A stretch of DNA of 64,000 nucleotides from Muricea muricata (taxonomy: Eukaryota; Cnidaria; Anthozoa; Malacalcyonacea; Plexauridae): NCBI GenBank assembly GCA_963855995.1, contig OY979719.1, positions 3,968,001 through 4,032,000 of the forward strand. The letters run 5' to 3'. Position 1 is the first letter of the stretch. Every line of letters begins with the position of its first letter. Shown here piece after piece: positions 4,314-53,435 of the stretch. The notes under the pieces were generated by a model. It did not search any database and was not told the origin of the DNA. It saw nothing but the letters and a program-made list of their open reading frames with translations. The position numbers and the translations under genes were made by a program.

Positions 4314-6439
4314 ATGGAGAAGTCTCGTCCAGAACCGCTTTCAGCAAAAGACCAAGGGTAGTAGCAATATTTTAATGAAGCTAACTAGTTCTGTATTCAG
4401 TTTTGTTAAATATTTGTTTCATTATTTGTGTTTTAAGGTCGTTTGCGTTCGATACGGTGAACAGGCGAATGCCAGTCATACTGACACGTGTCATCGATGA
4501 TACAAGCAAGCTTGCTTCCAAATTAACGCATGAAAATGATCATGTTAGTAGGTCTAAGAGTACTGTAATGAAATTAAACAATAAGAGAAATAGTAGGTTT
4601 TCTAGTGTTACCAGGATTACATACATCATGGGGGTGGGGTGGGGGAACTGGAATTTTAGCAATGGGCAAATTATACCCTTGTATACACTATAACATTTCC
4701 ACGAATTTCTATGGCATCTATGGGCTGTGGCTTATCCGTTTAACTTCCATGTGATGTCTGGTTAATTGGCAGATTTTTAACCCGTGATTAAATAAGGGCC
4801 TGGTACAAATACCATCAAAAGTCTGTGTCATTACGGCTGGATTTTGGTTGTAACTCTAATTAGCTTATTTTTGGCAAGAGTATTTTTGATTGGTTAATGC
4901 TAACTACAAAAAATATATTTAGACCGTCAGCGGCTACATAGTGTAGAGCATGATCACAGGTTAGCAGAGTTGGTACAATATTACAGACACTAGTTGAACT
5001 TCCATACTTTTGGTACATTGTTCAGAAAAAGGCAGATGATGTCAAAAGTATTGTGCACAAGTTATCAGGACTCAAGTATGAAATGGAGACAAACAAACCC
5101 ATAAAACTGCTTGACGACAACCAAACTGACACTAATGACTGGAACAAACTTTTACAAGAGACAAAGGCCTTGGTGCTGGGAAAGGATCTCACATTTTATA
5201 CTGGAGCATGGTTGCTGTGTGAATGCTATATGTATCGGAGAATATTTCAAGCATTTGTTAAAAGGTGATTATAGTTGAGAGGGATGGATATGCAGAATGG
5301 CCTGTATGGGTCTTTACTTACTGGGGCAAGTTTTATTACTAAGCCCTGGTATATTATGCTGCAGTTCTATCTTGTAATTCTGTTTTATAGTTCAAAAGAT
5401 ATTTTTCCATTATAGCTCAATGTTCAAAGACTATGACCCATTCAGTGAGCAGAAAAGGGAATCATTTTTCAGCACAATTGATTCGGTGAAGTCTTTGTCT
5501 CAGAATGTCGTGGAATGCACTGGAAACCTTGGCAAGAATTCGAGTGACGAAGCTGTGCAACTTGAATTTGAGACTTTGTTGCAGGTTTGATAAATTAAAT
5601 TACAATATTCTGTAGAAGTGCATCTGCTTTTAGACTATGTAAGTATTAGATTAATATCAAATGTATTCGTACAGTTTTCCCTATGGGCTAACAAGTGTGA
5701 CCTGTCAGTGTCGGGTGGTGAAATCAAAGATGGCCAACACACTGGTATGGCTGAGCAACTCAAGCACCTTAAAGACAAGATCCTTGTTGACAACACTTCT
5801 GAAGTTTGGAAACTCCTGAGAACCATTGATCGCAACACAGATCACGAGGTCCATATTGACTTTGTGTTAGACAATGCTGGTTTTGAGGTCTTCGCTGACT
5901 TGTGCTTGGCAGAATTCCTGCTTTCTCTGAATCTAGCTAAAACAGTCTACTTTCATGTGAAGAATATCCCTTGGTTTGTTTCGGACGCTTCTGAACGAGA
6001 CATCAATTGGCTGATTGAGCAGATGAAGCAATCAGAGAATAGCTACATTTCCAAGCTTGGAATGAGGTGGCAATCCCGATTCAAAGATCGTTCATTTCAA
6101 TTCAAAAAGCATTCATACTGGACATCAGGACATGACTACAGTGAAATGAAGGCAACTGCCCCAGATTTATATGAGGAATTGAGCAAAGCAAAACTGGTGT
6201 TCTTTAAAGGAGATCTGAATTACCGCAAGTTGGTCGGCGATCGCAAGTGGCCCCACACAACCCTCTTTGCCGAAGCATTGTGGGGATTTTGCCCATCTCC
6301 GTTGTGTTCATTGCGTACACTCAAAGCTGATGTAGTTGTTGGATTATGTGATGGACAAGACAGTGAGGCCCAATCAAAGGATGAAAAATGGATGGTTAAT
6401 GGAACTTATGCTGTTATACAATATCAACATAATTTATAA
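4314..6439 (+). CDS. ARMT1: damage-control phosphatase ARMT1 (DUF89 family)
   Basis: Five exons join in phase: 4314-4357, 4438-4543, 5026-5264, 5416-5584 and 5675-6439, giving 440 residues against 441 in human. Family hallmarks are LLCECYMYRRI, LWANKCDLS, VLDNAGFE (Asp252 and Asn253, metal-binding in the family), PWFVSD, LFFKGDLNYRKL and SLRTLKAD. DUF89 subfamily III enzymes are metal-dependent phosphatases that clear reactive sugar phosphates such as fructose-1-phosphate. The human protein was also reported as a glutamate O-methyltransferase; phosphatase activity is the better supported role. The first exon is short, and GSFAF at the exon 1/2 junction matches the human N-terminus, which supports this start. 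A polyadenylation signal follows at 6522. Confidence 0.95.
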
Positions 6440-11613: not shown

Positions 11614-13052
11614 ATGATCAATATGGCGGCAAAGCATGTGGAATATCAAGATTCTGAGAATTTATTAGCTTCAAGATGTGTTGAGCTTGGGTTTGTGGAG
11701 ACAGTAGAAAGTCCTGTTGTTCTTACCAGCCCTTTCTTCCCGAGCAAAATTGGAGGAAAGCCAGCATGGCTTGCTTTAACGGGACTTCCCTCTGCAATTT
11801 TGTGTAAAAACTGCGAGAAACCGTTGATATTTCTACTGCAAGTTTACGTGCCTTCCGAGGACGAAAAAAGCTCGTCATACCATCGAACGGTATTTGTTTT
11901 TTGCTGTAAAAATGGCGCGTGTTATAAGTCAAACTGTAATAAATCATTCGTAGCTTTAAGAAGCCAGCTTACTAGAGAAAATGAGTTTTATCACCCTGAC
12001 TCGAGTTTCCAACAACGAGATAAAGTTTTACAAGAATTTAAGGATCGGGGAGTTAAGGCGGCTTCTAATTGGACAAAGTTGTGTAAAGTGTGTGGGTGCC
12101 GGGGGGATAAATTGTGTGCAAAGTGTCACAAAGTGCATTACTGTTGCAAAGAGCACCAGGCTGTTGACTGGAAGGCGGGACACAAGGTGTCATGTGGGGA
12201 TCATGGTGGACAGAGTACTAATCAGCCAGGTAGGTGATAGACCACATATGGCACTGTAATGGTACTCCTAGACACTTTCTCTAACTCAAAGTAATATTTT
12301 CAGGTTTGGAGCAAAAGTTTCCAAACATTCTTTTTCCTGAGTATGAACTTGTAACAGAACCTGAAGAAATTAATGTAGATGATACAAACATAGAAGATCA
12401 AGAAAACATAAAAAAGTATGAGGAATACCTCAAGGATTGTGGCAATCTTGACAAGAATTCTGACAAAGACTGGAAATCATTAGAAGAAGAAAGCAAGAAA
12501 ATAAATGATGTTGTGGAGGATAAAACATATTGGGAATTCAAGAAAATAATTTCACACGAGCCTGAACAGGTTTGTGAGACAAGAGTGATAAACATCATTT
12601 TGTCATCAGAGAAGTTTTCCACCATTGACGTAAAATCTTAAATGTTCACAATTTCAGGTCCTACGTTATCAACGTCATGGAGATCCACTTTGGGTATCAA
12701 AGTTGAATATACCAAATGACAGCAATATACCCAAGTGCTCTTGTGGGGCAGAAAGAACATTTGAATTCCAGGTATCTAGAAAAAGGATTATCTTGATATC
12801 TTGACTGTTTTTACAATATTGTCTTTTTAAGTAAATGTGTGTTCTCTTTTTACATAGGTTCTGCCACAGTTATTGAATCATTTGAAAGTTGACTCATTGC
12901 AAGCCAGCATTGACTGGGGTACACTTGCTGTATACACTTGTTCTCAAAATTGCAACTGCCAAGATGCAACTTATACAGAGGAATTTGTTTGGAAACAAGA
13001 TTTTTCCAATACTGGCCTGCCAGTTGATATTTTATCTAAACTACAAAAATAA
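11614..13052 (+). CDS. PDCD2: programmed cell death protein 2
   Basis: Four exons, 11614-12229, 12304-12569, 12658-12771 and 12858-13052, encode 396 residues from the first ATG or 393 from the ATG at 11623. The second lies in a strong ATGGCGGC context and is probably the real start. The N-terminal half has VELGFVE and [11 protein letters not shown], as in PDCD2/TSR4. A MYND zinc finger spans about residues 157-194 ([20 protein letters not shown], then CKEHQ...KVSC). The C-terminal domain has YQRHGDPLW, a C-S-C pair ([14 protein letters not shown]) and LLNHL. PDCD2 is a dedicated chaperone for ribosomal protein uS5 in 40S subunit assembly. The acidic linker in exon 2 makes it longer than human PDCD2 (344). 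FANCM follows 227 bp downstream on the same strand. Confidence 0.94.
11619..11630 (+). promoter_or_regulatory. TISU/YY1-like element at the PDCD2 start
   Basis: The sequence CAATATGGCGGC matches the TISU consensus SAASATGGCGGC at 11 of 12 positions and also fits a YY1 site. TISU elements drive cap-dependent initiation on very short 5' leaders. This favours the ATG at 11623 over the one at 11614. Confidence 0.6.
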
Positions 13053-13206: not shown

Positions 13207-13293
13207 ATGGCGGCAAAAACGTTGAAAACATATGTTTGCGTTTGGGCAGAAATAACTGCCTTACTTCTTTACAAAGACAATGAAGAAAACTAA
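13207..13293 (+). promoter_or_regulatory. upstream ORF overlapping the FANCM start
   Basis: An ATG in AAACATGGCGGC context opens a 28-codon frame that ends at TAA 13291-13293, overlapping the FANCM ATG (13280) in another frame. If the transcript begins upstream of 13207, this uORF would restrain FANCM translation. If the motif acts only as a YY1 site, the transcript may start downstream of it. Confidence 0.5.
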
Positions 13294-16200: not shown

Positions 16201-19200
16201 ACAGCCTATCAGTTGAGGCTGTTTTCCAGTTACGCGTTTTACACACGTACGCACACGCACGTAAAGGTCTAAATCAATATCAATGTTACATTTGAAATAA
16301 ACAAATGTTTTGATGGAGAGAATTCAACATTCCCTACGAGTTAGCATACTTTAGTGATTCTATTTGTTAGATACAAGAGTTTACGCTTTTACGTGCGTGC
16401 ACGTGCGTGTAAAAAGCGGATAACTGGAAAGCAGCCTTTAGTAAGGTAAGTTGGTCAATCCCTCAGTTGGATAGTTGTTCAGCTGTTTGATGGGCTGGGG
16501 CCAGTTCTACGAAAGCGCTATCCACCGGATGGTGATTTTCAACTGCTGCAGAAAGGCATGCAAAGCAATGACAACAGGGACATTTACTCGCTAGAGATAA
16601 AAAGCAACTTCCAAGCCTTGAAATAAATATTTTCAGCTTTGTCCGGCAACTTCTTCGTTGCGCCGGACAAAATTTTCAAATATAATGTTCCAGCTATGAG
16701 CACTGGCGATTTCCGATATTTTTCACATATTACACAGATTAACTGTCGACTCGCTAGGTTTTCATGATACCATCTATTGGAAAAGAGCAAAACAAGTAAA
16801 TATTAGATGTAAGGCAACGAGACTCGCTGGAACGACGAGCGGAGCCGAGGAAGTTTTCATAGTTCACTCGTCTCCTGCATCATATTACACTGGAAAAAAC
16901 TGTAGAGAGCTTGGAAAATATATTTCTTGAGGCAATAAAAATATTCTACCGGACAAAATGTCCGGCAGATCAAAAGTAGTGTCGGACAAAACTGAATTTT
17001 TAAATTTTCAGCCGGACAAATGTTCGATGTACGTCCGGCGCTATTTCAAGGCTTGACTTCAACTCGAAACAGTAGGTACATCCATTGATGGACTGGTGAT
17101 TTTCAGGTTCTGCGTGTTGTGATAAGTCGGCTGTCGAATCAGGAGGTGCTGTGGATGAGAGATGCTGAACGGGTCAGCAAATGCATGTTGCTCTCAGCTA
17201 GAGAACAGTTTAGAAAAAAGCTTGCTGCCGGCCAACAGGTACTGTTGTAATAAGTTCCTTGTATGTTTGCATGGTGATTATTAATCAAAGTACAATTTTG
17301 TGGAAACACCGCGATGGTAAATTTACGTGGTGTTTTTACGAAATTATACTTTGATAGGTAATAATGTGTTGCTATCTGTCAGTGTCCTTGCGGAATATTA
17401 GAGAGGTTCAGATTTGACTTCCTCCACCACTACCACCACCTTTTTCCGATTTTTAAACAATTTGATTGGTTAATCGGGTAGGTCCGGCACATCTGATTGG
17501 CTGAAAGGTAGATTAAGGTAGTGGTAGAGGTATTGGAAGCTAAATTTGAACCTCTCTATTATAAACCAATACAAAGACTAAGTATTCTTCGCAAAAAAAC
17601 TTTAATACAACTTGTAGCAAGCATGCGAACAAGCCGTCAACAAGTCATATAGAAAGTTATCTCAAGATTTTTTCGTGAAATTACAATTACTGTGACCATT
17701 TTAGCCTCGAAATCAATCAGGTGCTATCGAAGGTGACTTCGCTGTGGCAATAAGCTTGTATCATGGTTATGATCTCCTCCTGCAGCATGGCTTGTTACCT
17801 TTTTATAATTTCCTCAAAGGTCAGTGGAAAGATGTCCTTTTTGAAGCTTTTTTGTGTGCAAGATTGCTTAAAATACTCGGGTACCTGTATTAAATGTAGT
17901 GAATTACTCAATTGGTAGAACGGCGGTCTAGAAACCCGATATGCGAGTTCTAATCCCGCTTGGGACAACAAAATTTTCTGCAGTGTCAGATTGATATGAA
18001 TCTAGTTTGTTTTTTTTTTTTGGACAAGCTTTCGTTCCAAGATGAGGAATATATCTCAATTATTACGACGCGTATTACGCCGATTTAGTAAGAGGTCGTT
18101 TTCTCCCGGCATAAACTCGGTGTGTGTGTGTGTGTGTGTGTGTGTGTGGAGGGGGAAAGGTCATACGTAGGTGGGGGGAGTAAGTGTGGGGAGGTATCAC
18201 CCCTCTCGGTACGTCCCTATAGTAGCATTTTACAATACGTTGCCGTAGTTTTTGCTTGAATTGCCTGAAGATCCAGTAAAGAACTAATATTTTAAACGCA
18301 GCACCACTTGCCGGAGAGTAGTATTCACCTTGATGTTTTGGACATTTTTCAGGTAATTCAGACCTGAATCTCAGCAGCTCATTGGAGGCTAAATCAGTTC
18401 TTTTATATTCTTACTGACAGGAATAGTCGACGGCAGTAAGGGAGTGTCTAAAGCAAGGACTGCACTCTCTCGAAATGTAGATTTTGTCGGTATTCTCCAC
18501 AGCCTTAGAGACCAAATAGAACTGCCAACGCAACCCGGTGGCAGCAGTGACGAATATCAGGTCAATCCTTCGTTTATCGGCCACCCGAAGTTGCTGGAAC
18601 TAAAGGATATCGTTTTGGAACATTTTCGCGCTCGTGAAAGCGTGCGAGCTGCGGGAAACACGAATGGGTCACGCGTGATGATATTCGCGCAATTTCGTGA
18701 CAGTGTTCAAGAGATATCGCGCATGCTTTCCGAGCATGAACCGCTGGTGAAGGCGATGAGCTTCATTGGTCAAAGAAGCAAAGGGAATTCGTCGAAAGGC
18801 CTAACACAGAGAGAACAATTACAGGTTTGTTAGTTCGATACTGTTCTCCCTAAAGGCATTACAGCTGAAACGAGTTTGTCTCTTTGTTGATAACTGTGAG
18901 AAAGCCAATTTCTCAAATTCGAGTTCATAACATATATGAACTATATAGTTTCTTTAAAGTTCGTTAAGCTATCCAAGCTTAGGGAGGAACTGCATGTGTA
19001 CTGCACGGGCAAAAATTATGAGTTCTTACTGCAGCTTGTTGAAAACAGGATGCAACGTTGTTGTTGGGGCAACTTTGTTCTTGGTTGTCGGCAATATTGA
19101 ACAATATTGTCGAGCCTAAATCAGCCCGCAATACTGAATATTGTTGACAAACTGGAACAATGTCACCACAACACTGATCTGATTTTTGGCCCTGCAGTGT

Positions 19201-22200
19201 GCTACTGTGGCACCTGTTGCGGGTTAATTCAAACTCGACAATGCTGGACAATGTTGTTGAGAACGTTGAACAATGTGGGCTGCAAAACATTTACTTCTGT
19301 TATCAGCAACCCTGATGAACTGGTTGTTCTTTTTTTTTGTTTAGGTGATACGAAAGTTCCGTAATGGTGGTTACAACACACTGGTCGCGACGTGTGTTGG
19401 AGAAGAAGGGTTGGATATTGGAGAGGTCGACCTCATTATTTGTTTCGATGCGAGTGCCTCTCCTATACGTCTTGTTCAGCGCATGGGAAGGACGGGAAGA
19501 AAGCGAGATGGACGGATCATTGTTCTAGTCACAGAAGGCAAAGAAGAACAGGTTTGGAATGTTTTGTTTTGCTGAAGGAAAGCACGGGGGGGTTGTTCCT
19601 CTCGCCACCTAAACTTGGCACTAGCGAAGCCAGCCCGACAATTTGGTCATGCTATGCAAATTTAAATCATTATCATTATTCATTTCTTTAGAAATTGATT
19701 CCTTATACGGTCTATAAACACTAAAAAAATTGCATTTGAATGACAAAATGTCGGGCTGGCTTCGCCGCTGAAACTAGGCCTGGTGTGGTATTTTCCCTGT
19801 GAGAGAAAGAGATCCCGCTGTTGATCTCTCCTGTGCTTCGAGGATTTTTCTCCGGTACTCTTTTCTCCAGGTACTCCGGTTTCCCCCTCTCTAAAGTGAA
19901 CACATATAGGATATTAAAGTTTTAAGGTAGACGCATGTTGAGTTAGGGCTCGGTTAGGCCGTCTGTTCACCCATCACAGGAATTATCGAAGAAGTGATCT
20001 TCAATAAAGTATCCGCCTGTTTATTCTTTCCTTGTGTGTACTCCAGGTCTACCAAAGGAGTCAACGCAACAAGTCAAGCATTCACAAGGTTATTCTAGAG
20101 TCTGCGCGCACGCTTGAATTGTACTTGGAAAATCCTCGCATGGTTCCGAAGAACATCAAACCTGTTTGCCAAAAGATGTTCATCACCGTTGCTGCAAAGC
20201 CTGCGACGAACACGAGGTAACCCGTTGAATGTCTGTCTCCTGTTGAATGTCTGTCTCCTGTTGAATGTCTTCACTTCTGTTTACCTAGTCCTAATAACCA
20301 GTCAATATTTTAAGAGATTGGCTTGTGATGGAAACAGTCTTCTAGCCTCGAATGACGTTTTTACAATACGGTGTTTTTGCCCTCTCCCCAACAACGTAAC
20401 AGGGAAGAAGACCCCATTTTCCATGTTGTTAAACCTGCTTTCACCGCTCACTTATAAATTAAGCGGGGGGGGGGGGTTCATATCTTTCAATGGAACTGAG
20501 ATTTATATTTCCAGTATGTCAACATACAAGGAACTTGTTTGCGCCTGCGTTGCATCGGATAGACAACTCTCGCCTTAAGCTCGAGTTTGTACGTCCAATT
20601 GCTATACAGCACGGTCGCCCATGTTTAAATGTACATATGTCTTTATTTCAACGCTCGTTGTTCTTCGTAGAAAATCTGCTAAATGTTCGAAAACGAGTGC
20701 AGATTGCAACATCAAGAAATTATTATCTGCAAGCGGAAGAAAAGGTTTTCTGTCACCGGAAGAACTTCGTTACTGGAACGACAACTTCAAACTTCCGAAC
20801 CACGAAGCCGGTCTAACTCCTGTAAAGTCCTGCCTTGTGGGCCAGCAGCATGACAATTGTTTGAAAGGTCAGCAATGTCCACCAAGTCTATCGCTAACCG
20901 AGTGGACAGCGTGGCAAACTCCTCTGCAGCAAGTCCATTTCGTCGACCACTCGAAGCGCTCTCGACATTTCGTAGAAATTTTGGAATTCTGTGATTTTCG
21001 TCGCGAATACAATGACAACGAGGATAGCTATGATTTGGAGATGTATTCGTACTTAAACCGCGAGGATGTTTTGCGACCTGGCGAGATTGAAGTTTTTGGA
21101 AATCCTGCCAAGGTGAAGAGGAAAGATGTTGTTGTTGTTGACGATGATGATGGCGAGACGACAAGGAGAGAAGATGGCGACAATAAGACGACAAGGAAAG
21201 AAGATGGCGAGACGACAAGGAGAGAAGATGGCGACAATAACACGACGGAATCTAACAAGAACAAAACTGGTAACAAAGATGGCAGCAAAAAGAGGAAATC
21301 GGCGGTATTTTTTTCGGACATTGATGATGATTTTGAAGATTCGTTCGTTCACGTGCCTGAGAAAACGGCAAAGATTGACGAAAGTTCACCTCGATGTGAA
21401 CCACCTTTGGAAACAGAACTTGAAAAGATCTCGCCAACAAAGACGCAGTTAGAACTGAGTCACTCGCTTGCCAAGAACATGACAGAATCCGCTAATCACC
21501 TCGAACTGAATCGTCCACTGTCTACTGACACACGTTCTGAAAACGATCTCTCGGATTTATTCGACATCCCTAGTTCTCAAAGGCATTGTAATGTAAATAG
21601 CAAGGGGCAGATATCGTATGATGCGAAATCTAAGAGTCTGCTCTCCAAGATAATCCCCGATGCTCCATCTTTGGATACTTTGCTAGAGCTCAGTGCGATA
21701 AGTGAAGGAATGGAACTGGAAGATGAGAACGATATTCAAGATAGGGAATCTGATCGGGATTTTTTTCCAACCATGTTTGCCGAAGCGCCCAAAGCAAACA
21801 AAGATCAGACATGTAAAATTGAAGTTGAGCCCGGTAAGCGAAAATCTTTCGATGAAACTGTTGAAGACGAATGTGATAAAAAAGAGGTTTCAGAGAAAGG
21901 TTCTAATTCTAAGAAGTCAAAGAATATTGAGAAGGATGGAATGACGGGAAATGATATTGCAGAACGGAACAGGGAACGTAAAGCCATGGACGGAGTGACC
22001 AGCGGTGATGGTGTTAGAAACGACTTCTGTAGCGTTGGAGAAAAGAAGGATAAAATTCTGGATAAACGATTACAACGTAGGGCAGAAGAGGATCGTCAAG
22101 AGGGACCGCATGTGTTTGGCTCAGGTTTGGTGTGCGATGCTGTTCCAGGAAACAAAGAGGATGACGGAGTTGATTTTGATTTTGACCAAGAGCTGGTTCA

Positions 22201-25200
22201 CTCGTTCTTCGACGCCGATGATGAGATGGATCGCATTCTCTGCGCTGTTAAGACACCGGGCCTGTCAGGCGATGATGAGAGGGTAAAAAATCTCGATAAT
22301 AAGAAAACAAAACACACTTCGAATGGCAAAGGTACAAACAAGAATTCCTCTACTGAGAAATTGGGCTCAGGTGCCAAACCTGACGGTACGAGTAAACACC
22401 AACTTCAGACGCCATGTGTGTTTGATGACGACATGTTTGTAAATGCGAACGAAAGGAATCGTACTGTGGGACAGTCGAATCGTGGACATAAAAATATCGA
22501 GACATTGAAATACAATCTTCAAACTCCGCAATTGTTTGATGATGAAGAATTTGAAAGTGAAGAGAATGACCAGGGGACGGAGCTACGGAGTACAATCAAA
22601 CATCTCACCTATCCGGATATGTCGTCTCATCTCACCTATGTGGATATGTCGAAGCCTGATTGTGGAGAAAGTGTGGATAACCAAGTAACCGCAAGCAAGT
22701 CTCGAAGAAAGCCGTTGGTTGAGCACAACGTAGACTCTAAAACAACAAACGAATTGGCAAAACCGAAATCCCAAAGTTCCTTGAGTAGAATCCAATCTTC
22801 TTCCATTCTCAAACCAACTGCTGATCAGTCCAAGTCCAAGTCTCAGAAAAACATATCCAAACCGCATAATGATTTTGTCTACTCATTTCACGAATACGGC
22901 CATGACGTAGTCGCTCCCACTCCTAATCGCACCTCGTACTTTGACAAGTCGCGTAGCTTTAGAATGGTACCCCTTTCTCTCAAAAGCTTTTCTTACGCAG
23001 GTGGCGGAAAAAATGAAACGACAAGACTTGAAGCGAGGAAAAATGTGTTGAAACTGAGGTCTAACGATACGGGTAAAGATTTAAGATCGAATCAAACCCT
23101 TCAGGTTGACGCCGAGATGTTAAAAAAGAGGTCTTCAGTTCAGGATGATTCCTTGAATGGTAGAGGTGAGGAGAAGCAAAAACAGACTACAAGAACGGAA
23201 CGAGGCAAAGCAACAAGCCCTTCATCTAATCAAACCAAATCCTCCATTGACGTTTCTATCAAAGGTAGCGAAAACACGGAAAATTTTTGTCTGCAAACTA
23301 AATTCGATGAACAGCCAACTACACTTAAAAATTCTTCATTCACGAAAACCGCATCTCCCAAAATCGAATCTCAGCCGCCAGAAAAGTCAGAGTATGCAGA
23401 CGCAAGCAAGAATAGTTCTTTTGAGGAAGAACTTATGGATGAAGAAATGGATCTGGCTTGTTTAAGTGCTTGCAACGAATCAAACTCTCCACTGGTGCGC
23501 CAAGAGAAAGGCACTGTTTCCTTGCACGATGTCGAGCGAGATGATACAAACGAGGAGGAAATATTGAAGGAGAAAACTGTATTTAAAAGTCCCCCTCCTG
23601 CTGAAAGGAAACCTTCGGGTCGATTTGAAGCTTCTGGTTCGAATAAAACAATGTCTGAATGTCAGGTTGAATATTTAGTGGACTCCCAGCCTGTGACTAA
23701 ATCGAAAGGAAATTCCAGATCAAAGGCTTTAAATAAACTGCAAGATAGTGATGAGGAATGTGGCGATGAAGCAAGTGATAATGATGGCGGGTCTGAAGAA
23801 GAAACACAAATAAAGAACGGAGGTGATGCGAGTGTGGTTTGTAAGCAAGGCTCTAACAGGAATCTTACTAAAATTGTTCATAAGATCCCTGACAGCGATG
23901 AAGAGGAGTTTGACTTGCCCAAGAAAGGTAAATAAGTACCGAGAGTTTAATGTCACTTAAAGTTTCTGTAAACTCTGTTCGTATGAAATTAAGGATGCTC
24001 TTTCCGGCTGTGCTAGTTGATTTTTCGAATTCAAAAGCTGTCTGATTGGGGAATAGTCTACTGTTATGTTAAGAAATATATTCCGTTTGCACATGAATTT
24101 ATGTTTGGGATTTCTGATATCCTAAATATTAATTGTAAAAATTAACGTTTTTTAGCGAAGCGAAAAAGGGAGTCTTCGCTTCTTGGAAGGTCCAAGGTCA
24201 ATAAGCAGAAGGTATCTTTTAAGTCTTGCTGATGTTCGTAAGAGTTTTACAATTTAACAGTGCATCTCAATTCTATCTGTCCTCAAATTTACATGATTAT
24301 TTCTAATAAAACATGTTTAAATTTCAAACGTTTTTTTAGAAAAGTCGTCCTCTGGTCAATGATTTTCTGGAAGTTGAAGCAGAGGTTTCCGAGGATGAGA
24401 TAAACATTAGCCATGGTTCATCAGATGACGGGGGAGATCTGGAAGAAATGGAGGATAGCTTTATTGACGATCGTAGTCAGCTTACGCAACGCAGTCCTCT
24501 CACAGCTATGAAGCAAAAGAAGACAGATAAGTCGGGGAACATGATGGATATATACAGAGCGTCCCTTCTTACCCCTCATCGTCAACAACTACGTTTTCAA
24601 TCGCCTGCATTTCATCGTAACAAGAGCAGGTACACATACAAAACTTTACTGCACGTGCTTAGTGGACAGGGCTATTACTCGTAATCTCTTCAAGGGTCCA
24701 CTAAGGGACATGACTTGTTACTCCTGTGATAGTCAAGTACAGCAAAAAACCTTGAACTGACTTTGTATACTAGATAGATCTATTAATTTTCGTGCACGAG
24801 TCCTGAGAGAAGCACCACAAGTAGCACACCTAAATCGAACTTTCATACTGAAGTCTTGTTTAATCTATCTATCGGCTCCAAATTGTCCTTTAGAGATTTA
24901 ATAGGACCTAACCTTTTGTTACTGCTCTAAGAAACCTGGAATGCTACGATTCTATTTTGCATGCTATTGGCAAGATATTATTGATGGAACTTCCCTTTCA
25001 CGTAGGTACAAGATGGTGTACCAAGAAACTACATCCACGCGAAACCCCATCACTTTCCAACCAGATGACGACAGCTATCATGATGTTTCCATGGAAACAG
25101 AGGAGTCCGATGACGACACGTTGGTTGAGGAACAGGACACTGCCTGCCCCTCCTTTGTCTCCCCGGACGAGAGTCAAATAACTGTACGAAGAAAACGTCG

Positions 25201-28200
25201 TGGTGCGAAACGCGTGTTAGCAGAAAGTTATTTCGCCAGTCCCAATGCGGCTGATTCCGTAGACCAAACGAGCCTTTCCGATCATAAAACAAAGCTTTCC
25301 GAACATAAAACGAACTTACCCGAACATAAAACGAAAGTTTCCGATCATGAAACGACGTTTTCCGAACATAAAACGAGCCTACCCGAACATAAAACGAAAG
25401 TTTCCGATCATGAAACGACGCTTTCCGATCATAAAACAAAGATTTCCGAACAGGGATTAAAGCCTTGTAAGCCAAGCTTGTATCTTCGTTCTAGGCGAAG
25501 TTTGTGCGTAGAACTAAAAGACATCAAGAATTCTCAGAATTTTGGTGGCACAAAGGACGACGCGATATTCAAACGCCCTGTAAACACAGCACCGGTGAGT
25601 GTGAATAAAGGACTTTGTGGGATTGCAAAGGGGACGACAGGACATCCAGGAGACAAAGAGGGCATTGATGATATCTTAGCAGCATTGAATGACACCGATG
25701 ACGAGACATTGTTGAGGGAAATTGATGCAATCAGTACGACTGTAAAAAAGAACGAAGTAGCTACGAAAAATGCATCAGAGACGGCTTTACCAAATATTTC
25801 CAAGAAAACACAGGATTATTCCTCAAGCAAACCAAGAATAAGTACTGATTCTAGGAAACCTAAAAGACATAGTGACCCTGGAAGTGCGAATACAAACATG
25901 ATTCATGTCAAAAGTAATGAAATTTCTAGAAACGCTCATTTATCTAGAAGCGTACAACTTTATTCAAGTGACGCGTGCGTTTCTGGAACTCGGCACTCTT
26001 CAAACAGCTCTAAACCGACGGAAAATAAACAGAAATCTAGAAATAATAACAATGATCAATCTAGGAACTCGGAATGTTTTAAAATAAACGCAGAACAGCA
26101 TGCTGGCACACGCACAATGATTCAATTCAATAGAAGTAATGTGACAGAAAATTTAAGAACTGGATTAAATTTTCAAACTAGTTCTAAAACGATGAGGACA
26201 GATGCCAATCCACATTTGAACAGCTCTACGACAAGATCGAAAAATAACACTGGAAACGTTAAGCCAAATGAATCTTATCCCGGTGTGGTGAAAAACTGCT
26301 CTCCAATATACCAACCGTTGACGACAATGTCGTCATCGAAAGATGATACACATGTTTACCCAGAGACGACCGCTGGTCAGGAGTCCTTTTCTGAGCACAC
26401 TATATTAGATGCATCAAATGCAACAGCAATCTCGGATGCTCCTAGCACATCATCAAATCCTGCTCTAACAGTATGTCGATATCTCTTTTCATATGATAGT
26501 CTAGTTCACTATCATTTCCCGCTTCTTTTGTTATCCAGTCAGTTAGGTCCCCCAGTACGGTAGTAACACTAGGGCAATAAGAGATGTTCCTTACTGGACC
26601 TCTAGGTAGAACCGTTTAGAACTGCTAGACCTATCCAGTATGAATAAAGTAAGTTAAGTTTAGGTTTCCTCCTGTGGTGTAACACCGGATCGATAAGAGA
26701 TGTTCCTTACTGGAGCTCCAAAAAGTACAGTTTAGAGGTATAAGGTTATGTCCAGTGTAAATAAAGTTAGCTTAGTGTAGGTTTCTCCTCTTGTAAAAAT
26801 GGATCAGTACGAGATATCCTTTAACGGACCAGTAGGAAGAACGGTTTAGAACTGATAGAGCTATCTAGTATAGATGAAGTCTGTTTAGTTGAAGTTTCCT
26901 AGTGTAGTAAAATTGGATCTATAAGAGATTATCTTTAGTGGACATCTTCTACGAAGAAGAGTTTAGAACTGATGGAGTTATCTAATTTATAAGTCAGTTT
27001 AATCTAGATTTCATTCCGTAGTTCCACTTTTACAACAAGTGTTGTTAGAACTCTTCTGAGAAAAGCAATTTGGACCTAAAATGATTTTGGGATGTGGTTT
27101 TGGTTTTTTTAGCCTGCACAGCGGGATAAGAACAAACTGACGATCTTAGTTGGTCCTACAGAAGTTTCGAACTGCCAGGTTTGTCCACTTCATTAATGGT
27201 CACAATTAACTTCTAATGTAGAGTTAATGGTCATATATTACTATTAATGTAGATTACTGAAATTTATTACACATATTCTTTGTTATAGATTGTTTCATTC
27301 CTACGTCGTAAACACAATATTAAGGCCATAGTGTCTCCAGTTACTGGATGTGACTATATCGTAAGCAATCGTATGGCCGTGGAACGGAAATCCACGTCAG
27401 GTCGGTGAAATGCATAGATATCTCATATACACTAGATAGCCCTGTATATCAAAAAGTGAAGTCAAAAATCTCAGCGGTATCCCCTCATAGCAAAAGGCGG
27501 CGGCCATATTGGTCGTTCCCACTCATGAAAAAAATGCTACAAAAACACTATACTTTTCTGCATTTGTGTATAAAATGCTTTTTAGCTGCATAAAAGAGGA
27601 TTTATTGTCAACTAACTCTGTCCATTTCCGCAATACAAAATACACAAATTATCATGCCCGCTGTCAACAACCATGCAGCGCCTGCGATCCGGCTTCAATT
27701 TTTGCCTGCCCACAGTGTGGGATATCTATGGTGAAATGATATAGTCTAGATTTACTTTGCTTCAGACTCGACCTAATTATTGTCCATGGAAGATGATATT
27801 GTTTTTCCGCAATCTTTTACAGATATCTCTAACCAGTCCAACTACAAGAAACTGTTGGCAAGAGTTCGAGATTTATGTGATCTGTATGATCGATCGTGTA
27901 TAGTGATTGAGCGTGACCGTGTTAAGAATGGCGAGACTCAAGTGAAACACGAGTAAGTTTGTTAATGTATTAGCCTCTGTTCACACGATGCTTGTGCTAA
28001 ATTGTGCTGGCAGAAGTCGTTGTATTCTCGCATAGATGGTCCCATCTTCTGAGGATTTGAGATTTTTGCGTGAGTATGTAGTTTGATAAATCCTTTTATG
28101 CTTGTTTTAGAGTTCGCAGTAAATATTTTGATCGAATCCTCGCTTGTCTGTCTCAGGCGCACGTCAAAGTCTTGTTCAGTGAGGGACAAGGTGGGAATTT

Positions 28201-29116
28201 ATTTGTTGTAGTAACGTATCGGCGGTGCAGAGTCGGCTGGCCTGTTAAAACAATGATTTCGACTATCTTTGCAGAAGGAACAGCGGATATTTTGGCTTCG
28301 TTAGCTCACGCTGAAGAGAGGAAAGGTCGTGCCATTATCTATCCGTTACCTTTGAACAAAGAACGGGAACAGGTAGCTACGCATGCATTGCTAACCTTGA
28401 CGTCATAAACCTCAGGGGTTATACGAGGATAAGAGCTGAGAAAACTCTCACTTTACTTTTCAAATCTCCTCGCTCATCCTCTAAAATTTTATATTTCAGA
28501 TTGTGAAGTTCTTAAGTTCAATTCCACGAACAAGTTATATCACGGCGATCGGTTTATGCTACCATTACAAGAATCTTCAAGATATTATGAACAGGCAAGA
28601 ACTAAAATTTCATTTGCATGGAAGATCAGTGACAAATGTTTTGTAAACACCGTCTTTAATACAGCCCTTTCAGACATCAAGATTTGATGTATGCTGTAGT
28701 GGATAGGGCTGGCATCGATCTTTACTCAAAAATAAAGGGTACATACATAAACATACAAATGTACAAAACGTTTGCCCTGTGTAAAGGAATCCTGAATCTT
28801 GCAATATTTACTGGCAATGTGCAATCCTCTAGTAGGAATGTGAAATCCACTAATAGGAACCGGATTCCACCAGATTCAACTAGTATACGTATTACAATCC
28901 CAATTCCACTAGCAGAAATCAGGGAGCACTGGTGTCCTTTCTCATGGATCTCTTTACATAGTTAGCTTAATTAGTCAGCTTGCTTATATTCTTAACAGTT
29001 CCCCTGAGGAGTTGATCAAACGAGTGAAGTCTCTCTCTGAAAAACGTGCCAAAGATATCCACAGCTTCTTTCAACACAGATTTTCTGCAGACATGGTTAA
29101 CTGCGGTGGCACGTGA
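13280..29116 (+). CDS. FANCM: Fanconi anaemia group M protein, Hef-type helicase/translocase with C-terminal XPF-like domain
   Basis: Twenty phase-checked exons: 13280-13904, 14503-14675, 14827-14904, 15972-16130, 17107-17238, 17705-17819, 18421-18824, 19345-19551, 20047-20216, 20671-23927, 24156-24211, 24340-24629, 25006-26470, 27113-27178, 27289-27400, 27823-27952, 28111-28190, 28275-28372, 28500-28594 (GC donor) and 28999-29116, giving about 2609 residues (human 2048). Superfamily 2 motifs: Walker A PTGLGKT (151-157), DEAH (253-256), [24 protein letters not shown] and [18 protein letters not shown] remodels stalled forks and anchors the Fanconi core complex to DNA. The long acidic middle (exon 10) carries short internal repeats: [24 protein letters not shown] and [16 protein letters not shown]. 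From about residue 2378 an ERCC4-type domain retains ERKSTSD (2431-2437), followed by helix-hairpin-helix segments at the C-terminus. TLFQTW at the N-terminus also matches human. Confidence 0.95.
15558..15690. mobile_element. fold-back MITE in FANCM intron 3
   Basis: Arms of about 50 bp: AATAAAACAATTATT...ATATGAGG on the left and its near reverse complement CCTCATAT...AATAATTGTTTATT on the right. A related arm fragment (AAAACAATTATTGAACTTGG) occurs near 61061, so this is a dispersed family. Confidence 0.7.
16217..16436. mobile_element. MITE in FANCM intron 4 with CG-rich inverted repeats
   Basis: Left arm GGCTGTTTTCCAGTTACGCG then TTTTACACACGTACGCACAC; right arm is the approximate reverse complement (TTTACGTGCGTGCACGTGCG ... 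ATAACTGGAAAGCAGCC). About 220 bp, no coding capacity. No target-site duplication was settled. Confidence 0.7.
16612..17055. mobile_element. MITE with 5-bp target-site duplication beside FANCM exon 5
   Basis: Terminal repeats CAAGCCTTGAAATA and TATTTCAAGGCTTG are bounded by ACTTC at 16607-16611 and 17056-17060. Inside are several CCGGACAAA motifs in both orientations. It is 444 bp and ends about 50 bp before the exon 5 acceptor, so it may contribute to the branch-point region. Confidence 0.78.
17401..17556. mobile_element. 156-bp MITE in FANCM intron 5 with TATTA duplication
   Basis: Ends GAGAGGTTCAGATTTGACTT and its approximate reverse complement (AAGCTAAATTTGAACCTCTC), flanked by perfect TATTA repeats at 17396-17400 and 17557-17561. 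The arms also share CCACTACCA/TGGTAGTGG-type blocks. Confidence 0.8.
17895..17970 (+). repeat. tRNA-like relic (SINE head or tRNA pseudogene)
   Basis: An A-box-like TTACTCAATTGGTAGA and a B-box-like GAGTTCTAATCC sit at about the spacing of a tRNA. Both boxes are degenerate (tRNA consensus GGTTCGAATCC) and the acceptor arms do not pair well, so a functional tRNA is unlikely. Confidence 0.45.
18121..18148. repeat. (TG)n microsatellite
   Basis: Fourteen TG dinucleotides in FANCM intron 6, followed by a G-rich stretch. Confidence 0.95.
25271..25438 (+). repeat. 21-bp coding minisatellite in FANCM exon 13
   Basis: Eight consecutive 21-bp units encode the heptad consensus x-x-(S/P)-(D/E)-H-(K/E)-T, for example [21 protein letters not shown] and KVSDHET (about residues 1978-2033). 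A partial ninth unit (KISEQGL) follows. A three-unit higher-order pattern is duplicated (LPEHKT, VSDHET, then FSEHKT or LSDHKT). The repeat is in frame and lies in the disordered linker. Confidence 0.9.
26564..27025. repeat. four diverged ~115-bp tandem repeats in FANCM intron 13
   Basis: Four copies start near 26564, 26680, 26800 and 26914. They share ATAAGAGATGTTCCTTACTGG-like and GTTTAGAACTGATAGAG-like blocks, then AGTTTAG...TTTCCT. They are diverged enough to be old. No coding capacity. Confidence 0.75.
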
Positions 29117-30065
29117 TTCAGCTGTGGGCGAGATGGCGCCGCAACTGGAGTGTGGTCATCTGATGTCGTTGGGTTCCTGGAATTACGGTCAGATAAAAAT
29201 TAATGGATCTTTCTAATAGTGACGACATATGCGGATTCATGATGTCACACGAAATTTCATTGGCCAAAAAAATGTGAAAAATGTTGAGCCAATCAAATTT
29301 CATCGAAGGTTATTTTTCCGTGGCTGACGTCGTCATATATGAGAAAGGTCTATTCACACGGGATAATATGGTACAATTGGGGACACCATTAATCCATTTG
29401 GTATGTTGGGTTTTGCGTTGAATCTGGGAAAATATTTTACATCAGTCGAACGATTTTTGAACTGAAATGAAAGTGTAAAAAATTTAAAGTGTGACAAATA
29501 TGAACAAATACGAACGCGAATGCTCAAGCATTTACGGGTGTGCGTAGGAAAATTATAAATTGACATCAAAATATATTGATATTATAGGAATATATTGAAA
29601 TTATAAACACAAGAACGGCAATTATGCATCTTCAGTGATAAATTAATCTTTGTTAATCATCGATTAACTATTGATTAAATTATAATATAATTTTGTGGAA
29701 ACACCACGTATGTTTATTATCGCAGCGCTTTCGGTCCGTAAGCTCGGATCTTTATCAATGCTAATAATAATGCGACTAATTTGAATTCACACGTCACTTA
29801 AATAGGTAAAATGTCGTGATTTGTATGCTCGCGTGATTTAAATGTTAATTAAACGGTTATCAGCTACGTCAAATCTAACAAGCAAAAAAGATTATTTTTT
29901 TATGTTCGCCATGCAAATGTACAAGGAACTTATAACTATTGATTAATAATTGACGTATTTAAAGAGTTCTAATGTTCTCTGCACGCGCGCTAGCGACGGT
30001 TGCCTAGCGACGACCCTTCTTAATGAATGACGTGACAATTAGCGGTGACAACCGAATGGAGCCGT
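29117..30065. other. FANCM/FBXO22 intergenic spacer with a dispersed-repeat fragment
   Basis: No gene was found. Around 29694-29760 the sequence AATTTTGTGGAAACACCACG followed by CGCTTTCGGTCCGTAAGCTC resembles a transposon end. A related hairpin (AATTTTGTGGAAACACCGCG...ACGTGGTGTTTTTACGAAATT) lies in FANCM intron 5 near 17292-17347. The rest is AT-rich. Confidence 0.5.
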
Positions 30066-31690
30066 ATGGAAGCGTCAAGTAGTGACCTTCCCTCTGTAAT
30101 CGCTTGCATACCAGAACTTGTCTATGAAGTCCTAAGTATATTACCAGCCCGCGTTCTGTACACCTGTACGCAGGTGAACCGTCTATGGTATCACGTGGCA
30201 AGATCCGTGCTGCGCAAGCGCGTCAGTTGTAGCACCGTGTTCGTACACGAACGAAACATCGAACAGTATGACGCGAAGGAGTACTGTGAGGGTTTATATT
30301 CGACCCCGCGGGTGATCTTCTTGTTCTCCTACGAAGATATCTGGCTCAATAGAAGAGACAAACCGCGCAGGCGTGGGCTCGAACGACAGCTGGTGAAATC
30401 AATTCGACATTTGTATGACGAACTTCCGGAAGATTGCCAGGTTCTGGGCTGTACGACGGAGAAGCTTATCTACCACCTACCGGAGAATTTTCCCTCCGGG
30501 CCCATGCACAAGAAGCGTGGTCACGTGGCTATATCATTCCCGGAAGTGAGTGGCGTGAAGTATCACACTGTTCACGTGAGGCATTTGAGATATCATAGTC
30601 GTGATTGGTCGAGACTGTTCAGGTTTGCTGTCAATCATCCTGTCAAGTTAGCCATCATCTTGGCATTACCACACAGCAGAGATATGATCGCACATATCGC
30701 GTCAGGTATGAGATGCACAACGCTTGTCTTTTTAACATTTTGTCTTGGTTTTGCTTTCTTGAGTCGAAATTATGATTGCGATGTTACTCTGATGTCTATA
30801 TCCACGCCGGACATGCTCGAAAATATGCCTGACCACGAAGGGAATCGACCCTAACAACTACGCGGTTAGGTCGGTTTGAGTATGTGATATTCCGAAACTA
30901 GTTCCTTCGATATCAATGTAGACGTAAATGTAATCATAATTTTTATGCGTCGTGGTGTTAAGTACTCGCGTGAAAATGATGTTTGTGGTGTCTATCGTAG
31001 GAACTAGACTCAGTTTTGAAATATTCGACCTGACCGTGTAGCTCAGTTGACAGAACTAATGGCTAACATTCCAAAGGTCGTAGATCCTATTCCCAGAGTG
31101 CCAGCATAGTTTCCAGCTTGCGTTGTGTAGATATAGACTCGTGTAATGCCGCAAAATCATTTTTAGTTCATGTTTTGTCCAAGTAACCTGTGTTGAACTT
31201 TGTTTTAGGTGTACGTGAAACATTTGGCGAAGGAGTTACTATGCTTGGAGGAGTTGGCCATGATCGATTGTTTATGGATGGCACGGTGCGTAGGACTAGA
31301 GCACTCGTTCTTTTGATCAGCGGTAGTGCATTTGGAGTACGTGCAGGATTTCTCAACCAGCCAGTAGCTTTGGCCGAAGGCAGAGCGGACTTCTACGAAC
31401 CAGCCCAGACTATGATCCGGGAACTTGAGGAGGAGAACTTTCGCCCCGCTGTAGCTCTTGTGTTTACCTCACGATTTGTGCATCGCGGAAACTCGTATTT
31501 CTCCAGTGCTCACGGAATATTCCGAGACAACTTCCCGACCATTTTGTCCGGGGGCTTCTACTCGAATGGGGAGTTCTGCATGAGGGATGGAGACCCGGGT
31601 AAAACCGTTGAACGCTGCCGGGAATATATGAAATACAATTCGTCCGTGTTCTGCGTTTGTGGATATGACAGGCTTGCTCTGGCTTCGTGA
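30066..31690 (+). CDS. FBXO22: F-box only protein 22-like (F-box plus FIST domain)
   Basis: Two exons, 30066-30705 and 31209-31690, join at G|GT (ASGVRETFGEG) and encode 373 residues (human 403). The first in-frame ATG is 30066. An F-box lies at about residues 13-53 (IPELVYEVLSILPARVL, then VNRLWYHVARSVLRK). Next comes the FIST N and C region with VLGCTTEKLIY, HVAISFPEVSGVKYH, VTMLGGVGHDRLF and the terminal SGGFYSNGEFC, which matches the FGFFGNGEIGC block of FBXO22. FBXO22 is the substrate receptor of an SCF ubiquitin ligase. The overall identity looks low, so another FIST-containing F-box paralogue is possible. The intron carries tRNA-like repeat sequence. Confidence 0.82.
31033..31100 (+). 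repeat. tRNA-derived SINE head in the FBXO22 intron
   Basis: The A-box-like GTAGCTCAGTTGACAGA is followed by CATTCCAAAGGTCGTAGATC and a degenerate B box. A related fragment (GCCTGACCACGAAGGGAATC) at 30824-30843 matches sequence at 34171-34190, so both belong to a dispersed family. Confidence 0.55.
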
Positions 31691-37157: not shown

Positions 37158-38119
37158 TTCTACTGCAAACACATCAAAGACAGGACACAAGGAAATAAAG
37201 AATTTCCAATTAGCTTGGATGTAATTTATTCCAATTTTTTACATTTATTTTTAATTTTCTGGTACCCACGTAGTAGGAGGAAGCTCTTTCCTTCCTCATT
37301 TCAACGTCTTTTCATTTCCCGTTTATGAAATAATCATTGATCGCTTGTCTTGAGCAATGTACACAAATATAATAAAATGGAAAACAAAGTTTTGGAATAA
37401 CAAGTCGAAGTAACATCGGAAATTATCGGTAGCTTTCGGCTTGGCTCGACTGTATTTCGTTATTCGGAAACTGTCGTACCTTGAAACGAATAAAAAACAA
37501 TTTGATACAGGTTTTTGTTTCGAAATTACATTTCGTTTCCTTTTCAGCTATATTACAGAAACGAAATGCGGAACATACGTGGGAAACGGTAGTTTGTTTG
37601 TAGAGTTTTAAAAAGAAAAGATAAAAATAGATCATTTTGAGTGTTTTACAGTAATAACTGACGTAACCAAACAAAGAGAGAATTGTGGGACGGTTTTGAT
37701 AGCCATATTAGGTTGTTTTAACCATATTTGGTGCCATATCCTTGGTGATGAAATATTTACCCGCGAACGTTGCAAGAGCGTTCGTCAATCGTCATTCAAG
37801 GATTGCAGCTCAATCTGTTTGGTTTGCGCTCGTTCAAAAGCTGAAAAATAGCAGAAAACATCGACTTTTGCAGTCAAGAAGACCTTCAGAAGATAACCAA
37901 AGACTAAAGGTAGTAAATTATTGTTTTAAATATCTAAGAAGTTCGTTTTTCTTAGATTCATTTGAAACTAAAGGCGTGCGTCTTCGCGGGCGATTTGAGA
38001 TAACGTGAGAAGTGTCCGGCTAGGCAGCTGTCTATTGTCTGTTTAAGCCGTGTCTTTTTTCTCCAAGAGGCAATTTTAAAGCCACTCCGATGCATTTTAC
38101 TTCGCTACCTTGTTTCAAA
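37158..38119. promoter_or_regulatory. divergent region between TTLL and HEXIM
   Basis: About 960 bp lie between the two start codons. A plus-strand frame from ATG 37748 (86 codons, ending 38008) contains ANVARAFVNRHSRIAAQSVW and a possible donor AAAG|GTAGTA near 37910. It could be an upstream non-canonical exon of HEXIM, but no family is recognised and no in-frame join was found. Confidence 0.4.
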
Positions 38120-38692
38120 ATGTCAGAAACGTGTTTAGGCGAAGTTTCAAGAGTTTTAAAACGGAAGAAAACGCGTCGGGGCAAACGATGGCGCTCAGAA
38201 GAAAAGAGAAAGTTTATAAACGACTACATGAAACAGAGAAAGCATAGAGTGGCGCCTTCAAACACCACACAATTTCTTATGGAAGACAGAGAGAAAGTTG
38301 AACCGATATTAAATTTATCACCGTCGTCTTCGACATCAAGCACAGACGAGGAACATGATTTTGAAATTGATCCTGAGTTAGACTATTTCAATGAACAGTT
38401 CTTTTTGAAAGATTTCGAAAATACGTATCGACAATTCCACCTTGATAACCTTTACTCTCTTTCTAAAATTGAACTGCTAGAAAAGGTGAAACATTTAGAA
38501 AGTCACAGAGACAATTTGGAGAAAGAAAAACAGCTGTGTTGCAACAGTACTAGTGGTATAAGCAACTCTGTAAAGGAACCAATGGAAGATGATTCCGATG
38601 GTTTAGAAAGAGAATTTCAACAGTTAAAGAAGGAGAATGATATGTTGCGGCGAGAAAACGAAACCTTGAAGCACGAAAGGGTGAACGAATGA
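38120..38692 (+). CDS. HEXIM1: HEXIM P-TEFb inhibitor
   Basis: A single intronless reading frame, as in human HEXIM1 and HEXIM2. It has 190 residues from the ATG at 38120 (MSETCLGEVS); an in-frame ATG at 38090 would add ten. A basic arginine/lysine-rich region spans residues 12-31 (LKRKKTRRGKRWRSEEKRKF) and corresponds to the 7SK-RNA-binding segment. The core motif reads VAPSNTTQFLMEDRE (44-58), where vertebrates have APYNTTQFLM. An acidic region (TDEEHDFEIDPELDYF) and coiled coils (about 112-140 and 160-187) follow for dimerisation and cyclin T binding. HEXIM with 7SK RNA holds CDK9/cyclin T inactive. The Tyr-to-Ser change in PYNT is notable (see findings). Human has two paralogues; the ancestral single gene is assumed. 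Confidence 0.92.
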   Translation: MSETCLGEVSRVLKRKKTRRGKRWRSEEKRKFINDYMKQRKHRVAPSNTTQFLMEDREKVEPILNLSPSSSTSSTDEEHDFEIDPELDYFNEQFFLKDFENTYRQFHLDNLYSLSKIELLEKVKHLESHRDNLEKEKQLCCNSTSGISNSVKEPMEDDSDGLEREFQQLKKENDMLRRENETLKHERVNE

Positions 38693-51691: not shown

Positions 51692-53210
51692 TTATGTGAG
51701 ACCAAAGTACTTGAAAAGCTGTGGTACAAGGTTGATAGCATTGAATGAAACCAATCCATATGTAATCAGCTTGTGTGGAACTTCAACATGACGTTTATAA
51801 TTCAATGGTTTTACTGTTCGGTCCCTTGGCAACATCTTTGAAAGGCTTGTTGTGACACACCATTTTGAAACAATCCGAGTCAATGCTAGAAGCACTGTAC
51901 CAACTGTGAACCTTAAGATGTACAGCAACATCACCTTGTAAGCTGACATTTTTTGAGCTTTTGTGATGAAATTTAACAACAACCTTTGATTATGCGGAGA
52001 AAACCTTAGTCCAATCAGTGCTCCAGCAGCAGCCCCAAGTACTAACGCTGTGTCTGAATATGTATTGTATGATATAGGTGTCGATGTTGGGTAGAAGTAT
52101 AACAGTGCAATAGGAACCATAACACCAAGGGAAAGGATGTTTGGGGATGTTTCACACCAGTTTTCGACTGGCAGATCATTAAGAATTGGAAGCACAAAGA
52201 CCATGATCAGAATTTCAAACAGTATTCCGTATATCACATCCTAAAATTTGGAAAGAATAATGTAGTCTGACAGTAAAATATTGTTTCACTACTTCTGCTT
52301 CATAGTCTTACCGTGACGTAGTGCATTCCAAGGTAAACTCTGCTTGCGGCAACAAAACTGGAGTAAATAGTTACAAAGAATAAGGCAAAATAGATGTTGT
52401 ACTATAAAAGAAAATACAAACATGTTTAGATTGAAAACAATGGAAATTCTCAGAACATGTTGGTGATTTAATGGAGCTCCACCATTGGATACTGTCACGC
52501 TGTCGACAATCATAATGTATAATCAAGGTTCACACTTGTTGCAAGGATCAGGGATTTTCTCCTTCGCATGTATATGTGAATGAATATGTGAACAAACTAA
52601 AGAATAGGACAAACATTAGATTGCATTTGGAATGCTATAGATTTCATTCAATCACATCAGCCAGAAGAAGTCATCCCCAATTATCAAGTGTGAGCCCGGC
52701 TTCAGGTGAACCTACCCCAAAATTTTCATAAGTGAAGTAAACCAAGGAAAACGGCACAACCACTCCAATCATGGCATGTGTTGATGGAGTTGAATACTCC
52801 TCAGCATACTTTTTCTCCACCCGTATAACAGGGGGGGATGGGGGCCGTGGGGCTAGGAAAGTATCTTTTGCAACCTGTCCCAAGTAAAGAGATATAGCTA
52901 GGGACAAATACACTCTGATCACAGCTTTTTGGTCAATATTCCACAAGACAAAAGACAGCAATGCTATTAGCACTTGCTCATCCCCTAGGGCTGAGCTTAA
53001 GTAAAACAGAAAATGAATTGCAGAGTTGCACTCAAAGTCTGAGTTTTGAATGTTTGTTTTTTCTAAGTCGCCATTCTGTAAATATTTGTCTTTAATTTCC
53101 AAATCTGAATGACAGTCTTTTGATTCATATTTCGACGAGGTTTTCCATTGCAAACCACAAAACTGTTGAAATTGAACAACTGTCTCCTTGTCACCCAATT
53201 TAGCCCACAT
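51692..53210 (-). CDS. SGPP1: sphingosine-1-phosphate phosphatase (PAP2 family)
   Basis: Three exons, 53210-52716, 52401-52312 and 52240-51692, encode 377 residues. The tripartite PAP2 phosphatase signature is complete: C1 KDTFLAPRP (115-123), C2 PSTH (142-145) and C3 SRVYLGMH...D (185-196). The strings ASPP-like PPSPPV and EEYSTPSTHAM are characteristic of SGPP1/2, which dephosphorylate sphingosine-1-phosphate at the ER and so set ceramide and S1P levels. Multiple hydrophobic segments are consistent with a polytopic membrane protein. SGPP1 versus SGPP2 cannot be told apart by eye, so the symbol is provisional. The gene is convergent with the DMAC1-like gene. The true ATG is 53210. Confidence 0.92.
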
Positions 53211-53435
53211 TTTCAAGAAATATAATGAACCACAGGCGTTTCAGGTTTCTTCTATTAGCAGAAAATATAATATTTTGATATTGCAAAACTTCAAAATTCT
53301 AGAACGAACGTATGATTTTTTTGCCCAATGAAAGCACTCTTCAACTTCGAACTTTGACCTGAGCACCGGCAAACCTAGAAATTTCATTTTTACAGTCCAC
53401 GCGCGCGTCACGTAACTTTTTAGCGCACTAAAAAG

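Follow-up and report, generated by a model that had tools for sequence, protein, structure and literature searches.

FANCM of the cnidarian Muricea muricata carries an ERKxxxD motif in a C-terminal domain that is probably a pseudonuclease

The FANCM gene and its surroundings

The window analysed here is a stretch of 64,000 nucleotides from contig OY979719.1 of Muricea muricata (assembly GCA_963855995.1). It contains a complete FANCM gene on the plus strand (13280-29116), whose structure we assembled manually using open reading frames and splice signals. The in-frame model has 20 coding exons and 2609 residues, ends at a stop codon located at 29114-29116, and presents AG/GT borders throughout, except for intron 19 (28595-28998), in which an apparent GC-AG splice pair is found. 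The C-terminal domain is spliced from seven exons (Table 1), and exons 14, 15, and 16 are joined in frame with AG/GT borders.

The domain matches described here, together with the tree discussed below, identify the protein as a FANCM orthologue. At the N-terminus, there is a DEAH translocase of the FANCM/Hef type, with the motor motifs LPTGLGKT and FDEAHKA, that matches human FANCM (9EL5) with an E-value of 1.8e-200; the next match is 1WP9 (E 2.3e-81), which we take to be the helicase of an archaeal Hef. The translocase is followed by an MHF-binding domain (PF16783, FANCM-MHF_bd; E 1e-23, 84.1 bits, with a cut-off of 25). The C-terminus is formed by an ERCC4-(HhH)2 unit that matches human FANCM with an E-value of 2.1e-44, 76 of the 213 aligned residues being identical, and the next protein, A. 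pernix XPF, follows at 9e-10.

Repeats and short motifs were also observed in the gene. Exon 13 contains a tandem array (25266-25452) with a 21-base period and 8.9 copies, placed within a 63-base higher unit, that encodes a seven-residue linker repeat of the type LSEHKTK. Exon 10 carries two copies of the short motif LQTPxxFDD[DE] (22394-22438 and 22508-22552), which could possibly be a repeated binding motif, its partner being a guess. The sequence QTTLFQTW (13307-13330), near the N-terminus, resembles a PCNA-binding box, and a similar box is presumably present in human FANCM. Open reading frames found elsewhere in the window are listed with the exons in Table 1.

Table 1. Exons encoding the C-terminal domain of Muricea FANCM and other open reading frames in the window
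Feature	Positions	Strand	Content
FANCM exon 14	27113..27178	+	Motif I, VGPTE (residues 2390-2394); VDxRE in XPF/Hef
FANCM exon 15	27289..27400	+	18 residues of the ERK motif region and the first base of the Asp2437 codon
FANCM exon 16	27823..27952	+	Remainder of the Asp2437 codon (two bases); Q2441 and R2450 at the sites of the family-invariant Ser and Gln
FANCM exon 17	28111..28190	+	Later ERCC4 domain; aligned with human FANCM
FANCM exon 18	28275..28372	+	End of the ERCC4 domain
FANCM exon 19	28500..28594	+	First part of the (HhH)2 domain, then the GC donor
FANCM exon 20	28999..29116	+	End of the (HhH)2 domain and stop
ORF	5594..6436		ARMT1-like phosphatase match, 2e-66
ORF	11614..12234		MYND finger match, 1.7e-06
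ORF	30036..30851		F-box-like domain match, 0.00043, below the cut-off
ORF	38024..38689		HEXIM match, 2.6e-17
ORF	52674..53240	-	PAP2 match, 3e-06

Residues kept and lost in the ERCC4 domain

The domain was compared with two sets of nucleases. The first consists of the best 80 of 128 prokaryotic ERCC4 relatives detected, of which 79 are archaeal and one is labelled as an Elusimicrobia bacterium; they correspond to 18 clusters at 60% identity, and their nuclease activity is presumed. The second is made up of five named nucleases, that is, P. furiosus Hef, A. pernix XPF, human XPF, and two MUS81 proteins. The patterns used to retrieve the relatives contained GDY or D..S after ERK, so these columns are biased; motif I, the Lys, and the Gln lie outside the patterns. 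Within the best 80 of 128, the Ser and the last Asp are present in all 24 loci matching only the GDY pattern, the Asp of GD is present in all 49 matching only the other pattern, and seven loci match both. Two loci, L001 and L037, start inside the domain and were left out of the motif I count, and L002 replaced L001 in the profile and the tree. When viral contigs were searched with a FANCM-specific alignment, 52 matches to the pattern were obtained, none of them a relative. Regarding the literature, searches on FANCM motifs, on other animals or eukaryotes, and on evolution returned no ERKxxxD statement for an invertebrate FANCM among the matches listed, and such a statement may exist in print.

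The original prediction, made from the sequence, was that the C-terminal domain of this protein keeps an intact ERKxxxD signature, and Asp2421, Glu2431, Arg2432, Lys2433, and Asp2437 were all reproduced, with identical numbering, in our rebuilt protein. The codon of Asp2437 is split as G and AT over intron 15 (bases 27400, 27823, and 27824). To place this junction, we tried 15 AG acceptors between 27720 and 27950 and six GT donors. Six of the acceptors leave the frame open to the stop, namely 27823; 27793, which adds 10 residues and keeps Asp2437; and 27865, 27871, 27904, and 27943, each of which removes at least 14 residues of the ERCC4 domain. Two donors are open, 27400 and 27370, and the use of the latter removes ten residues, including ERK. 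Among the junctions tried, only 27400/27823, which is the one originally proposed, keeps the frame open to the stop and also aligns with human FANCM without gaps. Nor is the motif a chance match, because the domain in which it lies matches human FANCM at the E-value of 2.1e-44 given above.

All of the 80 prokaryotic relatives (best 80 of 128) and the five named nucleases have the ERK Lys and the final Asp, so that Lys2433 and Asp2437 represent ancestral states. Human FANCM does read ERRSQSE at this site in its PDB sequence, in agreement with the earlier view that it is degenerate there, and we infer that its Arg and Glu at the Lys and Asp sites are derived. Muricea has Cys2420 in place of the Gly of GD. 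At this position, the prokaryotic relatives (best 80 of 128) have Gly in 63 cases, Ala in 16 (L006 and 15 other archaeal loci), and a gap in one, and in four of these 80 the ERK motif reads EFK or EKK. Judged from these counts, the Gly of GD is not essential for the family, and both this position and the middle position of ERK are looser than they are usually written.

A stretch of 14 residues in the ERK region differs at a single residue between Muricea and human FANCM and is the best conserved between the two proteins (11/12 in the top windows). Since the human site is inactive and the stretch is conserved nevertheless, this conservation is no evidence of catalysis. A strand of 10 residues is identical in both proteins, even though the human site is inactive, and the constraint on this strand probably has another cause, either the grip on DNA or a contact with the motor domain.

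Motif I reads V2390 G2391 P2392 T2393 E2394 in Muricea and VGGHE in the PDB sequence of human FANCM, which bears out the claim that the first Asp and the Arg are absent, as in human. The Asp (XPF D687) is replaced by Gly in both proteins, the Arg by Thr in Muricea and by His in human, and Glu2394 is retained in Muricea. For comparison, all 78 prokaryotic relatives that cover motif I (from the best 80 of 128) read D-x-R-E there, and the Asp and Glu of the motif are both present in the five named nucleases. As for the Arg, XPF keeps it (Arg689), but MUS81 has Gly or Cys there, and therefore its loss alone is not telling. Asp is absent from residues 2383-2420 of Muricea FANCM and from the aligned human segment that precedes its CD, and therefore realignment cannot rescue the motif I Asp.

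Changes are also found after the ERK motif, where the Ser and Gln of the family (XPF S735 and Q744, chain numbering) are Q2441 and R2450 in Muricea FANCM. Both residues are present in all of the 80 prokaryotic relatives (best 80 of 128) and the five named nucleases, and human FANCM keeps both. The change from Gln to Arg (AGA) at 2450 needs at least two base changes, and ERK, the Ser site, and the Gln site all lie within exons. In a passage of PMC5983712, Q744 appears among the residues conserved in the family, together with a Ser that is numbered 733 there.

The importance of the motif I Asp is addressed in studies of XPF. PMC10869700 describes XPF D687A as devoid of catalytic activity and UV or trabectedin breaks as absent from cells with this mutation; one of the two cell lines, a HAP1 line, has a further one-residue deletion. 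In the cryo-EM study PMC12804970, the relevant passages describe D687, E690, D715, and E725 around metal density, with D687 near a putative second metal, and cite a strong impairment of XPF activity by mutation of D687 and by R689A and R726A. No paper on active-site mutants of MUS81 came up in a literature search.

Profile and tree comparisons

Conservation in the prokaryotic set (best 80 of 128) reaches 95% or more in 20 columns, of which Muricea FANCM keeps 11 and human FANCM also keeps 11. Eight of these columns are common to both proteins, three are kept in Muricea only (the Lys, the Asp, and one Leu), three in human only (the Ser, the Gln, and another Leu), and six in neither. At a threshold of 85%, with the same best 80 of 128, each protein keeps 16 of 32 columns, and 12 of them are shared.

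The profile scores place Muricea below human FANCM, with 39.7 against 60.0 bits for Pfam ERCC4 and 55.3 against 67.5 bits for a profile of 23 presumed-active nucleases. When each of the 23 members was left out in turn, the scores ranged from 58.6 to 185.6, the lowest being those of the shortened MUS81 and XPF rows (58.6, 59.8, and 80.3). Muricea FANCM thus falls below all 23 members; human FANCM outscores the two MUS81 rows (58.6 and 59.8), and for this reason active and inactive domains cannot be told apart by this score, and only the order of the two FANCM proteins is used here. For the Pfam FANCM pseudonuclease domain (PF17949), Muricea FANCM reached 16.0 bits, below the cut-off of 23.6, and human FANCM was unlisted at E-values up to 1.

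In a maximum-likelihood tree of 25 rows, the two FANCM proteins were grouped with a support of 100/100; the bootstrap was not yet settled, with 17 of the 22 inner branches left open. The FANCM stem has a length of 3.83, and the tips measure 1.34 for Muricea and 0.38 for human.

Decay of the active site and comparison with known systems

The alignment against XPF, MUS81, and Hef, which had been suggested along with the original prediction and which we ran with human as the only other FANCM sequence, gives the Lys and the last Asp as ancestral and the motif I Asp, the Ser, and the Gln as lost. Considering the gene and its residues as a whole, it seems quite likely that the C-terminal ERCC4-(HhH)2 domain is dead or nearly dead as a nuclease and that, after the loss of motif I, its decay was complementary to that of the human domain. 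Such a pseudonuclease would act as a DNA-gripping module that pairs with FAAP24, as expected from the family, and serves the N-terminal translocase. The motor would move along branched DNA and remodel it, in line with passages on FANCM in PMC6320978 and PMC12263834, and the C-terminal domain, with FAAP24, would grip duplex DNA. Passages of PMC12263834 also describe a 5-bp contact made by the human FANCM pseudonuclease, as well as a contact between the two ends of human FANCM through I1827 and V1847, both of which are needed for FANCD2 foci. These two residues, which we placed by counting from R1866 and E1870 (PMC3905867), align with V2395 and V2414 of Muricea FANCM.

At the active site itself, Asp2421, Glu2431, and the backbone of Arg2432 may still form the first metal site. 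In the human protein, a Ca ion occupies the active site under high calcium (4BXO), and no metal was seen there in Mg structures, as described in PMC3905867 and PMC12263834. The presence of Ca in the human site indicates that the first metal site can survive the loss of motif I, and, by analogy, a one-metal site without cleavage is plausible in Muricea FANCM. Without the motif I Asp, which in XPF lies near the putative second metal, and without the Arg that touches DNA in XPF, cleavage would be abolished or very weak. As explained in part of PMC3905867, the inactivity of human FANCM is due to the missing Lys and last Asp and to a hydrophobic surface around the site that does not bind DNA, and a passage of PMC5962103 attributes the inactivity of human FANCM to the missing lysine. 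On the residues present in Muricea FANCM, the Lys and Asp arguments are not applicable to this protein. Moreover, the D..E.K core, which is equated with PDXn(E/D)XK in a passage of PMC6320978, is complete here (D2421, E2431, and K2433), and this counts against the pseudonuclease reading.

One could thus imagine that the D..ERK..D core still cleaves DNA, weakly or in a special manner, despite the changed motif I, perhaps with the help of FAAP24 or of another metal. Every residue of GDxnERKxxxD is present except for the first Gly, which is dispensable (Ala in 16 and missing in one of the best 80 of 128 relatives), and the human site, as noted for 4BXO, can hold Ca. However, XPF mutants of the motif I Asp are inactive or strongly impaired in the passages of PMC10869700 and PMC12804970 mentioned above, the Ser and the Gln are lost too, and SHOC1, which carries ERKX3E, is inactive in vitro as far as part of PMC5962103 describes it. 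Residual nuclease activity is therefore unlikely in our opinion; a residual or one-metal enzyme of this type has little probability, and the same goes for a living remnant whose core would retain weak or one-metal cleavage of branched DNA. If such a remnant did exist, animal FANCM would still unite translocase and nuclease in one chain, as in Hef. It is far less probable still that some of the residues compared here are not real, owing to another junction or to base errors in the assembly. The gene model does come from one genome, with its open frames and splice signals, and the Asp2437 codon is split over an intron, but no other junction tried is both open and gapless against human FANCM, the ERK, Ser, and Gln sites lie inside exons, and a Gln to Arg change through AGA would take at least two base errors.

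A further question is whether, as the original prediction had it, Muricea FANCM represents an ancestral half-way state on the path from a Hef-like FANCM to the vertebrate form. This idea survives for Lys2433 and Asp2437, which are ancestral, and for motif I, which is lost as in human. It fails for the domain, which is not an intermediate because the Ser and Gln that human FANCM keeps are lost in Muricea, both proteins keep 11 of the 20 columns, the profile score of Muricea is below that of human, and its tip branch is longer. A simple intermediate is thus quite improbable, and the pattern resembles decay along two separate branches that followed a common loss, not a step toward vertebrates. 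In the simplest history, motif I would have decayed on the stem shared with vertebrates and different losses would have followed on each side, the vertebrate lineage later acquiring ERR in place of ERK and Glu in place of the last Asp, and the Muricea lineage losing the Ser and Gln. This order of loss is drawn from two FANCM sequences and from the statement on vertebrates in PMC3905867. Outside animals, FANCM-XPF proteins of chytrids are described in PMC11061109.

Muricea FANCM lacks both human substitutions in the ERK motif yet shares the loss of the motif I Asp, which suggests that the decisive loss of the nuclease took place earlier and elsewhere. With this protein, the timing and the manner in which FANCM lost its nuclease could be tested cleanly. 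It also illustrates that ERKxxxD alone is an unsafe sign of nuclease activity.

Among known systems, the pseudonuclease of human and vertebrate FANCM (4BXO, 4M6W, and 9HJO) belongs to the same gene and family, has the same order of domains, and also presents Gly in place of the motif I Asp. In contrast, its motif is given as CDXnERRX3E in a passage of PMC3905867, while that of Muricea is CDXnERKX3D, and human FANCM has the Ser and Gln after the motif that Muricea FANCM is without. Archaeal Hef, for instance that of P. furiosus, is a single chain that carries both a helicase and an ERCC4 nuclease, according to part of PMC7776575. Both ends of Hef match Muricea FANCM (1WP9 and 1J22), with ERKxxxD and the metal Asp and Glu in common, but Hef and the 80 prokaryotic relatives (best 80 of 128) have V-D-x-R-E and S..Q where Muricea FANCM has V-G-P-T-E and Q..R. 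The XPF and MUS81 proteins (human, A. pernix, and zebrafish) share with it ERKxxxD, the Asp of GD, and the motif I Glu, but they keep the motif I Asp where Muricea FANCM has Gly. Finally, the ERCC4-(HhH)2 domain of SHOC1 keeps ERK and, as described in part of PMC5962103, showed no nuclease activity in vitro, a result for which its authors allow an artefact; SHOC1 is not FANCM, and the last residue of its motif is Glu in the same source, whereas it is Asp in Muricea FANCM.
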